Source: Gemmatimonadota bacterium
GTDB taxonomy: Bacteria; 4572-55; J002
Length of the DNA: 6,605 nt
Assembly: GCA_003697105.1 (NCBI GenBank)
Contig: RFFQ01000039.1
Span: forward strand, 1 to 6,605
Direction: 5' to 3'
Below, piece by piece: positions 668-6,605 of this stretch. The position numbers and the translations under genes were made by a program. The notes below the pieces were generated by a model. The model did no database searches. It was not told the DNA's origin and worked only from the letters and a program-made list of their open reading frames with translations. Numbering within the stretch: the first letter of the stretch is position 1; each line of letters starts with the position of its first letter.

Positions 668-1639
668 TTATACTTTGTCAAGCTTTTTTACTTCCCGCTT
701 GTCGTTAGGTGGTTCCGTCTCCACAAAGCCGAGGCGGTCTGCAATAATGTAGGGCGGGCGTTGCTTGACTTCATCATAAATCCGGGCGATGTATTCTCCG
801 ATAATGCCGATACCAATTAGTTGGACACCCCCTAAAAAAAGGATGGAAATGAGGGTAGTCGCATAACCGGGAACTACATCGACGGTTAAAAACCGCTCGA
901 TGAAGATCAGCATTGCACTAAAAAACGCGATGAATGAGACGATGAAGCCAAAGATAGTTACAGCTCGAAGCGGCGCGGTGGTAAATGCCATTAAACCATC
1001 TAACGCTAAGGTGAACAGCTTGCCGAAAGTGTATTTGACTTCCCCCGCATACCGGGCGTCCCGCTCGTAGGGGATACCGGTTTGCCGGAATCCTACCCAG
1101 GAGCGCAAGCCCCGCACAAAGCGGTGCTGTTCTGGGAATTTACGCAGATGATCAGCAACTTTGCGGTCGATTAGCCCGAAATCCCCGGAGTCAAGCGGAA
1201 TATCAATATTTGCGATTTCCCGCAATAAACGGTAGAACAAGGCGTATGCCACACGTTTTTTCCATGATTCTTTCCGGTGTTGGCGCACACCATACACTAC
1301 ATCATAACCTTCACGCCATTTGTCAATGAATTGGGGGATTATTTCCGGCGGGTCTTGCAAGTCACCATCTAAAATGATAACAGCGTCGCCTTGCGCGTGG
1401 TCAATACCCGCCGTAATGGCCATCTGGTGTCCAAAATTGCGCGAAAATGAGAGACACTTGATCCGCCGGTTCTGCCGGTAAAACTGGTGAATCACCGCTA
1501 ATGAATCATCGGTACTGCCGTCGTTGACCACAATCACTTCGTAGTCCATACGTATGGTTTCAAGAACCTGCGTCACGCGCCGAAATAGTTCGGGCAGAAT
1601 TTCTTGCTCATTATAAATCGGAATAATGATGGAAAGCAT
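668..1639 (-). CDS. Family 2 glycosyltransferase with two C-terminal membrane helices (polyprenyl-phosphate sugar transferase type)
   Basis: The 323-residue protein has a cytosolic GT-A domain and a membrane anchor, the layout of GtrB, ArnC and DPM1-like enzymes. Those move a sugar from a nucleotide donor to a polyprenyl phosphate at the inner face of the membrane. Visible motifs are the opening IIIPIYNEQEIL (4-15), the nucleotide-binding VVNDGSTDDS (37-46), SRNFGHQMAITAGID (66-80), and the metal-binding DGDLQDPPE at 91-99 with D91 and D93. Acceptor-side residues follow at SGDFGLIDR (151-159) and the QHRFVRGLRSWVGF stretch (171-184). Two hydrophobic segments at about 226-247 and 261-283 are followed by GEYIARIYDEVKQRPPYII, the usual tail of this subfamily. 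An in-frame TAA at 1648-1646 lies three codons before the ATG, so the start cannot move upstream, and the family motif begins at residue 3. No SD precedes the ATG; a 17-bp tandem array abuts it. The sugar and final product (lipid A, O-antigen or protein glycan) cannot be told from sequence. Confidence 0.9.
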   Translation of the reverse strand: MLSIIIPIYNEQEILPELFRRVTQVLETIRMDYEVIVVNDGSTDDSLAVIHQFYRQNRRIKCLSFSRNFGHQMAITAGIDHAQGDAVIILDGDLQDPPEIIPQFIDKWREGYDVVYGVRQHRKESWKKRVAYALFYRLLREIANIDIPLDSGDFGLIDRKVADHLRKFPEQHRFVRGLRSWVGFRQTGIPYERDARYAGEVKYTFGKLFTLALDGLMAFTTAPLRAVTIFGFIVSFIAFFSAMLIFIERFLTVDVVPGYATTLISILFLGGVQLIGIGIIGEYIARIYDEVKQRPPYIIADRLGFVETEPPNDKREVKKLDKV

Positions 1640-1640
1640 T

Positions 1641-1740
1641 GAGTTTTATGAGTTTGGGAGTTTTACGAGTTTGGGAGTTTTACGAGTTTGGGAGTTTTAC
1701 GAGTTTGGGAGTTTTACGAGTTTGGGAGTTTGGGAGTTTT
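1641..1740. repeat. 17-bp tandem repeat array abutting the glycosyltransferase start codon
   Basis: On the plus strand the unit GAGTTTTACGAGTTTGG occurs five times without gaps (1641-1657, 1658-1674, 1675-1691, 1692-1708, 1709-1725). The last four copies are identical and the first differs by one base (TATG for TACG). A partial copy GAGTTTGG (1726-1733) and GAGTTTT (1734-1740) end the array. Each unit is itself two halves, GAGTTTTAC and GAGTTTGG, so the hexamer GAGTTT occurs 12 times. The array stops one base before the start codon of the minus-strand glycosyltransferase, where an SD would normally be. There are no spacers, so it is not a CRISPR. Near-identity of the copies points to recent expansion by slippage or to constraint. 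Confidence 0.95.
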
Positions 1741-1770
1741 TTTACACTGCTAACAGCTAACGGTTCATTC

Positions 1771-1951: not shown

Positions 1952-3508
1952 ATGCTACGTGAATTTCGGAACGAGCCGTATGTTGATTTTTCCCAACCGG
2001 AACCTCGCCGCCGGATGGAGGAAGCGTTAGCGTATGTGGAGTCGCAATTGGGTAAAGAATACAGCCTAATTATCGGTAATGAGCATATTACCACTGATGC
2101 TAAAATTACCTCCATAGCCCCATCTGACAAAAATAAGGTGATTGGTATCTTTTCCAAAGCAGATAAAGAGCTTGCCAACAAAGCGGTCGAAACGGCGTAT
2201 GAGACCTTCCAGACATGGAAAAATGTCGATCCGATTGTGCGGGCGCGGTATCTATTGAAAGGTGCGGCAGAGATGCGCCGTCGGATTTATGAATTCTCCG
2301 CCTGGATGGTCTATGAAGAAGGAAAAAATTGGTTGGAAGCGTATGCCGATACCGCCGAAGCGATTGATTTTCTGGAGTTTTATGCTCGCGAAATGATGCG
2401 GTTAGCCGCGCCGCAACCCTTAACACCCATTGAAACAGAAGAAAATGATCTACAATATATTCCGTTGGGTGTTTTTGCGGTGATTCCGCCGTGGAATTTC
2501 CCGTTAGCCATTATGGCGGGTATGACGACTGCCGCCGTGGTTTCGGGCAATACGGTAGTTTTGAAACCCGCCAGCACGGCGCCGGCAGTTGCTCGGGTTT
2601 TTGTGGACATGATGATAAATGATTGCAGTTTACCGCCGGGCGTCATCAATTTCTGTCCGGGTTCCGGTGGCGAAATGGGGGATACGATTGTAGCCCATCC
2701 CAAAACACGGGGTATTGCTTTCACCGGTTCAAAGGAAGTTGGTTTGCATATCCATGAACTGGCGGCAAAAACGCAACCGGGTCAAATCTGGATTAAGCGC
2801 ACCATTCTCGAAATGGGGGGTAAAGACGCCATTTTAGTGGATAATAATGTAGATACCGACGAAGCCGCTGCCGGTATTGTCGCCTCGGCGTTTGGGTTTC
2901 AGGGTCAAAAATGTTCGGCGTGTTCGCGGGCAATCGTTCATCAAGATGTATATGATGAAGTGCTCGAAAAGGTCGTCGCAAAAGCGAAAGAACTGACCGT
3001 AGGACACGCTAAAGATAACCCCAACATGGCCGCAGTGATCGACGAAAATGCGTATAATAACATTCTCAATTATATTGAGATCGGCAAAGGCGAGGGGCGT
3101 TTGATGTGCGGTGGTGAACCGGCAAAAGTTGAAGGGTACGATGGCTTCTACATCCAGCCGACCGTCATCGCGGATGTCGATCCGCAAGCGACCATCGCTC
3201 AAGAAGAAATTTTTGGACCGGTATTGGCATTTATCAAAGCAAACGATTTTAAGCACGGTTTAGAAATTGTCAATAATACGGAGTTTGGCTTGACCGGTGC
3301 GGTGTACTCCAAAAACCGAGAGCACCTGGAATTAGCTCGGCGTGAGTTCCATGTGGGGAATTTGTACTTCAATCGAAAATGTACCGGTGCGTTAGTGGGT
3401 AGCCAACCGTTCGGAGGCTTCAATATGTCTGGGACGGATTCCAAAGCCGGTGGACGAGATTATCTGTTACTGTTTACCCAAGCTAAACTGATCTCGGAAC
3501 GATTATAA
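1952..3508 (+). CDS. pruA: L-glutamate gamma-semialdehyde (1-pyrroline-5-carboxylate) dehydrogenase
   Basis: This 518-residue cytosolic enzyme of the aldehyde dehydrogenase superfamily would oxidise glutamate semialdehyde, the open form of 1-pyrroline-5-carboxylate, to glutamate with NAD+, the second step of proline breakdown. The catalytic cysteine is C321 in GFQGQKCSACSR and the general base is E287 in ILEMGGKD. The oxyanion-hole asparagine is N182 in PPWNFP, and the cofactor loop FTGSKEVG is at 257-264. EEIFGPVLAF (418-427) and the C-terminal FGGFNMSGTDSKAGGRDYLLLFTQ (487-510) are hallmarks of the monofunctional RocA/PruA branch, and the length is what that branch shows. No proline dehydrogenase domain is fused and none is encoded next to it, so the first pathway step must lie elsewhere. 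It has its own SD, promoter candidate and strong terminator, which suggests a single-gene transcript. The symbol rocA is used for the same enzyme in Firmicutes. Confidence 0.95.
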   Translation: MLREFRNEPYVDFSQPEPRRRMEEALAYVESQLGKEYSLIIGNEHITTDAKITSIAPSDKNKVIGIFSKADKELANKAVETAYETFQTWKNVDPIVRARYLLKGAAEMRRRIYEFSAWMVYEEGKNWLEAYADTAEAIDFLEFYAREMMRLAAPQPLTPIETEENDLQYIPLGVFAVIPPWNFPLAIMAGMTTAAVVSGNTVVLKPASTAPAVARVFVDMMINDCSLPPGVINFCPGSGGEMGDTIVAHPKTRGIAFTGSKEVGLHIHELAAKTQPGQIWIKRTILEMGGKDAILVDNNVDTDEAAAGIVASAFGFQGQKCSACSRAIVHQDVYDEVLEKVVAKAKELTVGHAKDNPNMAAVIDENAYNNILNYIEIGKGEGRLMCGGEPAKVEGYDGFYIQPTVIADVDPQATIAQEEIFGPVLAFIKANDFKHGLEIVNNTEFGLTGAVYSKNREHLELARREFHVGNLYFNRKCTGALVGSQPFGGFNMSGTDSKAGGRDYLLLFTQAKLISERL

Positions 3509-3604: not shown

Positions 3605-3613
3605 AAAAAGGAG
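3605..3613 (+). promoter_or_regulatory. Ribosome binding site of the TonB-dependent receptor
   Basis: AAAAAGGAG lies 12 bases before the ATG at 3626, longer spacing than for the other genes here. The start is still favoured because it alone gives the signal peptide. Confidence 0.6.
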
Positions 3614-6168: not shown

Positions 6169-6279
6169 CTATTTGAGTAGAACCATATTTACGGACGATT
6201 CGTAGTCACTGGTTTTCAAGCGGTAAACGTAGGTTCCAGTTTCGTGGCATCGCTCACGATTGAAATTTCTCAATCTTTA
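6169..6279 (-). pseudogene. Remnant of a T9SS C-terminal sorting domain
   Basis: On the minus strand a frame opens after a TAA (6279-6277) and runs 35 codons to a TAG (6171-6169). Its end reads HETGTYVYRLKTSDYES followed by SVNMVLLK and stop. The G-T-Y-x-Y-R-L core and the xxNMVLLK ending are the hallmark of the last two strands of the type A sorting domain that sends proteins through the type IX secretion system in FCB bacteria. Only these last strands survive: the usual N-P-F-N-P motif and the first half of the domain are absent. Upstream in this frame is a stop, and the nearest coding sequence, the cytochrome fragment at 6383, is in another frame. The tail therefore cannot be translated as part of that gene without a frameshift and stop suppression. 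It is most likely the decayed 3' end of the cytochrome gene; a sequencing error is an alternative. Confidence 0.75.
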
Positions 6280-6382
6280 GTGTCCTCGTTTAGTTTTACC
6301 GTATCACCTCACTTTCTACGTTAGCTTTTCCACCATCCGTGACGTTCTTACTTTCAATCCGTACCGGATGGTACATCATGGT
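6280..6382 (-). other. Stop-interrupted stretch between cytochrome fragment and T9SS tail
   Basis: Reading past the TAA that ends the cytochrome frame gives 28 further open codons (6382-6299), including YHPVRIESKNVTDGGKANVE, then TAA (6298-6296) and another TAA two codons later. The 28-codon piece reads like beta-sandwich protein sequence, and it could be the remains of the linker domain that normally sits between an enzymatic module and a T9SS sorting domain. No SD precedes its Met-Met, so it is not proposed as a gene of its own. Confidence 0.4.
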
Positions 6383-6605
6383 TTATTGAACATCTGCCAC
6401 TTGCATCTGACCGTCGTGAATGACGGCATTGGGCACATTCGTACCGGTTAAGTAGCGATAGCTTTGTTGCAATAATTGCACGGCGTAATCTGGATTGTGG
6501 ATACCATGGCTTTTATCATCATGCAGATAGACCATATTATATCCCGCTTCGCGATGAATCCGATCTGAGGTGGAGACATCGGAGATTGCTTCCACAACGC
6601 CATCA
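6383..6605 (-). CDS. C-terminal fragment of a probable multiheme cytochrome c, cut by the window edge
   Basis: A minus-strand frame is open from the right edge and ends in TAA at 6385-6383, giving about 73 residues. The segment HDDKSHGIHNPDYAVQLLQQ, followed by SYRYLTG, has the K-S-x-G-I-H-N-P-x-Y-A-x-x-L-L pattern found near the C-terminus of periplasmic multiheme cytochromes c, including the cytochrome c nitrite reductase-like group. There the histidine lies in the heme environment. No CXXCH heme site lies in the visible part; all would be upstream, outside the window. A GTG at 6595-6593 is an ordinary valine here, since the frame continues beyond it. The protein ends abruptly at QVADVQ, and a T9SS sorting remnant lies beyond in another frame, so the gene is probably truncated. 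If so, it once encoded an exported redox protein. The family call rests on one motif and is moderate. Confidence 0.55.
   Translation of the reverse strand, partial: DGVVEAISDVSTSDRIHREAGYNMVYLHDDKSHGIHNPDYAVQLLQQSYRYLTGTNVPNAVIHDGQMQVADVQ

Follow-up and report, generated by a model that had tools for sequence, protein, structure and literature searches.

Dispersed AACTC-type tandem arrays abut coding boundaries in a Gemmatimonadota genome and may serve as Shine-Dalgarno-free start regions

The spacer upstream of a family 2 glycosyltransferase gene contains one member of a dispersed family of short tandem arrays, in which the core AACTC recurs every 8-9 bp with variable linkers. We consider it probable that this family accumulates in spacers through copying between loci and slippage, and that purifying selection on the flanking genes keeps the arrays from crossing coding boundaries. 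At sites such as the present one, with AACTC on the sense strand right up to the ATG, the array would have taken the place of the original leader and its Shine-Dalgarno (SD) sequence, and ribosomes would probably land, independently of an SD, on the open, G-poor repeat; any tuning of expression by copy number would be a by-product.

The array beside the glycosyltransferase gene

The window analysed here (6,605 nt) is the entire contig C104 of a 4.18-Mb genome assembled in 199 contigs. The AACTC-type array occupies positions 1641 to 1738 and carries 12 AACTC cores, all on the minus strand, which is the strand of the glycosyltransferase mRNA. Tandem Repeats Finder (TRF) reported a period of 17 with 5.4 copies and 98% match at 1641-1731, as well as a period of 8, and a search that allowed up to 3 mismatches placed five tandem copies of the 17-mer at 1641-1725 (0.02 expected by chance), with one mismatch in the first copy. 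Each 17-mer joins a 9-bp unit, GAGTTTTAC, and an 8-bp unit, GAGTTTGG, which have AACTC/GAGTT in common, and beyond 1725 the array runs on to 1738 as GAGTTTGGGAGTT. The glycosyltransferase gene (668-1639, minus strand, 323 aa) begins with an ATG at 1637-1639, one base from the gene-side end of the array. The initial annotation, which had described five 17-bp repeats and a partial tail at this distance from the ATG, was thus borne out by both TRF and the mismatch search. It was also right that an in-frame stop fixes the ATG, as a TAA lies three codons upstream; in a perfect 17-mer array every frame of the mRNA strand contains TAA, and the other strand is free of stops. Position 1 of the Pfam profile aligns to residue 3 of the glycosyltransferase, which makes this start plausible.

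The mRNA strand of the array is almost devoid of G, and fold prediction leaves the array unpaired (fold z-score 0.07), in agreement with the earlier expectation that so G-poor a unit would hardly fold; a structured leader or riboswitch-like element is ruled out by the same result. A promoter-like sequence, TTGACA-17-AATGAT, is found at 1771-1799 on the minus strand, a site defined by its consensus match only (10/12 positions), and if it were used, the array would sit in a leader of roughly 120 nt. The array is thus likely to lie inside the 5' leader, as had been proposed, to judge from the sequence; the promoter-like site speaks for this part of the earlier reading, although it is weak, with 0.9 sites of such match expected per shuffled region. 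Beyond the array, as seen from the glycosyltransferase, positions 1739-1764 (minus strand) hold a second repeat-like phrase, CCGTTAGCTGTTAGCAGTGTAAAAA, and phrases related to it precede the arrays of L094, L097, L102 and L122.

Pfam supported the gene names given to the window (GT2 for the glycosyltransferase, thioredoxin, aldehyde dehydrogenase family and TonB-type barrel), with support for the aldehyde dehydrogenase at the level of the family and not of the P5C subtype. The latter gene (1952-3508, plus strand) is divergent from the glycosyltransferase gene and lies on the far side of the spacer. As first noted, the glycosyltransferase has no SD, while SDs are present for thioredoxin (591-600), the aldehyde dehydrogenase (about 1941-1947) and the TonB receptor (about 3607-3613). 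Past the TonB gene, positions 6180-6604 on the minus strand look like an interrupted reading frame, of which an open ORF at 6383-6604 and then a separate stretch resembling a C-terminal tail remain.

Dispersal across the genome

BLAST identified 44 matches to the array in its own genome, and a pattern of three AACTC cores yielded 342 matches (175 forward and 167 reverse), as compared to 1 for the reversed control pattern. We examined 36 stretches, with gene calls from a home-made hexamer model, and located 42 arrays, almost all of them between predicted genes. With tandem short units at about 40 arrays in one genome, the array belongs to a dispersed repeat family. The initial annotation had raised the possibility that the 17-mer is such a family; dispersal was confirmed by the genome search, and what the arrays have in common is the core AACTC with variable linkers. 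The proposal that the array is a replacement of the ribosome binding site specific to one gene did not hold, given about 40 dispersed copies that adjoin stops nearly as often as starts.

Several arrays also have flanking sequence in common. The phrase GTTAGCAGTGTACAAAA flanks the arrays L094, L097, L102 and L122 and occurs in variant form in the window; GGATTTAGGGATTAGGATTTAGGGGTTCATGTAATTCCC is found at L104 (twice), L105, L120 and L125, with 6-11 matches genome-wide; GGATGAAGGATGAAGG flanks L091, L099 and L101; and L098 and L103 have another flanking phrase in common. These phrases are degenerate and lie on the other side of the arrays. Common flanks at several arrays indicate that composite segments were copied between loci. 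Contigs end within an array at L092, L095, L096, L107, L110, L111, L115 and L116, which indicates that the AACTC family breaks the assembly and that long arrays may have more copies than were counted. The same array sequence is found at the contig ends L110 and L111 (G000 contigs C90 and C94) and at L107 and L116 (C78 and C121), and the two ends of each pair probably lie side by side in the genome.

Array-free spacers look ordinary, and a G-to-C strand switch was not found in them. A general switch from G-rich to C-rich in all spacers is ruled out by this observation and is also countered by the mixed arms opposite arrays at start boundaries. None of the relatives searched belonged to the same genus or family; one was of the same class, and its best glycosyltransferase match showed 35% identity.

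Position relative to gene boundaries

When arrays were read in the AACTC direction, 31 had both neighbours known and were used in an edge test, ahead of which the starts at L091 and L108 were shifted to in-frame upstream ATGs. A coding boundary was no more than 4 nt from the leading edge in 17 of the 31 arrays and from the trailing edge in 2 of 31; were the arrays placed uniformly in these spacers, 4.8 leading edges would be expected to lie so close, and none of 20,000 simulations reached 17. The leading edge was also the nearer edge in 24/31 arrays (p 0.003). The boundary ahead was a start in 20 cases, while in 16 an opposing gene ended there, and equality was not rejected (p 0.62); between tandem genes, 14 arrays were forward and 13 reverse. 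The initial annotation had taken scattering of the array with no link to start codons as evidence against its reading: the arrays are indeed scattered, but they are linked to gene edges, with starts not favoured. As stops are adjoined about equally often, a position beside a start codon does not by itself imply a role at that codon, and the array does not resemble a dedicated on/off switch. Simple slippage and selection would not predict the polarity seen here, in which the AACTC leading edge sits tight against the gene.

Start codons without Shine-Dalgarno sequences

Eleven genes start 0-4 nt past an array, and all 11 have ATG and none an SD. The 20 nt upstream of these array-adjoining starts contain 2% G, and their predicted unpaired probability from -15 to +10 is 0.73, as compared to 0.50 at 250 other starts (p about 1e-5), so that these starts as a group combine the lack of an SD with an open, G-poor region at the start, as expected of SD-independent sites. 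An SD-like 4-mer precedes 47% of predicted genes, as compared to 11% of internal ATGs, and 139 of 262 predicted genes have no SD, which means that an SD-less gene is not rare in this genome. Arrays that end 11-22 nt short of a start mostly have an SD in between (L097, L116, L117 and L124). Since the 11 ATG starts have no SD and are unusually unstructured, SD-independent initiation at array-adjoining starts appears likely from these predictions.

These starts also bear on a translational regulon, in which start-facing arrays would bind an RNA-binding protein or a ribosome variant, as proposed for TAACTGA in Beggiatoaceae; TAACTGA direct repeats are intergenic and have been described in marine Beggiatoaceae, Cyanobacteria and Bacteroidetes (MacGregor 2015, PMC4679880). 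While the 11 SD-less starts with an array 0-4 nt away speak for such a regulon, and repeats of Orange Guaymas Maribeggiatoa mostly end a few nt from starts, most commonly 1 nt (PMC4679880), we regard it as quite unlikely here: arrays of this genome have no orientation bias, as opposed to TAACTGA, of whose 170 sets 147 face a start and 12 a stop (PMC4679880), and the downstream genes have no common function.

Genes flanking the arrays

Pfam analysis of 30 proteins flanking arrays showed that these genes are mostly housekeeping genes, and not surface or phase-variable ones. Starts led by an array include those of PriA, a MutY-like glycosylase-NUDIX protein, an SMC_N (RecN-type) protein, MazG, biotin ligase, Leu/Phe-tRNA-protein transferase, SAM hydroxide adenosyltransferase and LptF/G, and stops on the array side include those of DapB, a glutamate-type dehydrogenase, RecJ, proline dehydrogenase, a carboxyl transferase and ExbB. 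Domains near arrays are complete, with DapB_C extending to residue 256 of 258 and Carboxyl_trans to 515 of 517, and PriA and LptFG likewise keep complete domains to a few residues from the array. As domains reach to within a few residues of the arrays, arrays stop where proteins stop, and this completeness points to purifying selection on the edges of genes.

The same neighbours weigh on the contingency-locus logic that had been attributed to the array, in which slippage would change the copy number of the 17-mer and thereby tune translation of the glycosyltransferase, a surface-modifying enzyme, as for the AGAT repeats of uspA2 in Moraxella catarrhalis, a precedent described in PMC4679880. 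The near-perfect tandem units, the leader location and the unstructured RNA all fit this logic; however, about 40 arrays of the same family exist, next to housekeeping genes and also at stop codons, and none of the relatives searched was from the same genus or family, as a strain comparison would require. The contingency-locus reading is thus not supported and we consider it unlikely, and a contingency set of surface genes is ruled out by the Pfam assignments of the neighbours.

Arrays in other lineages

A scan of GTDB contigs found AACTC arrays in many unrelated lineages, among the matches listed, and some of these arrays are coding repeats. The sequence GAGTTNNNNGAGTT followed within 30 nt by AACTCNNNNAACTC had 141 matches in 6 of 18 genomes, and the opposite order had none. 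The matches listed fall at about 35 distinct places, and as several Chloroflexi places are copies of one dispersed element, roughly 29 are independent. Inverted two-array spacers were found in Chloroflexi, Omnitrophica, Pyrinomonadaceae and Saprospiraceae bins and in Desulfobacterales, and within a spacer that has such a pair AACTC is directed outward, at the gene on either side. Pairs of TTTAGGG and CCCTAAA in Alistipes-like genomes have the same sense (6 to 0). In the array's own genome, inverted pairs of AACTC arrays were not found in either order. In three Omnitrophica stretches, 2-13 nt separate the array ends from start codons and -9 to 9 nt separate them from stop codons; arrays of the Chloroflexi bin keep a distance of at least 20 nt from starts, several of which have an SD in between. 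This bin (G060) also has near-identical inverted GAGTT-AACTC arms at L240, L242, L243, L246, L247 and L252, in a dispersed element with the common ends TTAAACTTTATTTTCATTCTCG and AACTATTTTNACAGGAG that occurs in several spacers and is possibly a small mobile repeat. At L256 (G055:C6:38000-51500), GAGTT/AACTC arrays are concentrated in one transporter operon, at about 4460-9300.

The outward polarity of inverted arrays is one regularity that falls outside our preferred explanation of copying, slippage and selection; no description of it was found in the literature searched, and its recurrence across phyla makes it a testable regularity. It could be accommodated if an undescribed DNA process built GAGTT-type spacers outward from gene edges in several phyla, with the arrays secondarily becoming SD-free initiation regions, which we consider very unlikely. 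A specific form, in which repair or copying extends repeats outward from gene boundaries by synthesis of the GAGTT strand, reading away from the gene, so that a spacer consists of two tails joined centrally, we regard as extremely doubtful. The exclusive order of GAGTT before AACTC and of TTTAGGG before CCCTAAA would be explained by such extension, as would the proximity of the leading edge to the gene in the edge test. However, the count of inverted pairs is inflated by inverted copies of one dispersed element, arms opposite arrays in the array's own genome are not consistently G-rich away from start boundaries, and at the branched-chain amino acid transporter locus of G055:C6, an unrelated genome, GAGTT arrays reach a start and some repeats lie inside coding sequence near gene starts. 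It also counts against such extension that we know of no enzyme that would carry it out.

Comparison with known repeat families

Cyanobacterial STRR heptamers are short-unit tandem arrays that are dispersed, mainly intergenic and degenerate. AACTC arrays resemble long simple sequence repeats (LSSRs) in these same properties, as far as the latter are described in PMC4679880 (citing Mrazek 2007), and differ from LSSRs and STRRs in their mixed units of 8 and 9, in being compound with other phrases and in their sharp abutment at coding boundaries. The AGAT repeats of uspA2 lie in the 5' leader, between promoter and start codon, as mentioned in PMC4679880, and the glycosyltransferase array likewise lies between a (here predicted) promoter and a start codon; however, uspA2 is one surface gene with, according to that mention, a shown effect of copy number, whereas AACTC arrays are found at about 40 loci with mostly housekeeping genes, and Pfam indicated no association with surface or antigenic genes, as expected of phase-variable loci, among the 30 flanking genes.

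No description of AACTC/GAGTT arrays was found in the open-access literature, and their closest precedent is TAACTGA (PMC4679880). Both repeats are dispersed and intergenic, in many cases 0 to a few nt separate the array from the ATG that follows, and both have a G-poor, unstructured sense strand, no SD and downstream genes without a common function; the largest class of TAACTGA repeats ends 1 nt before the start codon, and SDs are rare (PMC4679880). The two differ in their unit, which is AACTC plus 3-4 nt here (8-9 bp, variable) and 7 bp for TAACTGA (MacGregor 2015), and in start bias, which is absent for AACTC and strong for TAACTGA in Maribeggiatoa (PMC4679880); mixed orientations, on the other hand, are common to AACTC and to TAACTGA in Microcystis (PMC4679880). 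AACTC arrays also occur in phyla other than those reported for TAACTGA. AACTC arrays are thus a variant of known intergenic short-repeat families, and they extend the TAACTGA-type phenomenon to a new repeat and to new lineages.
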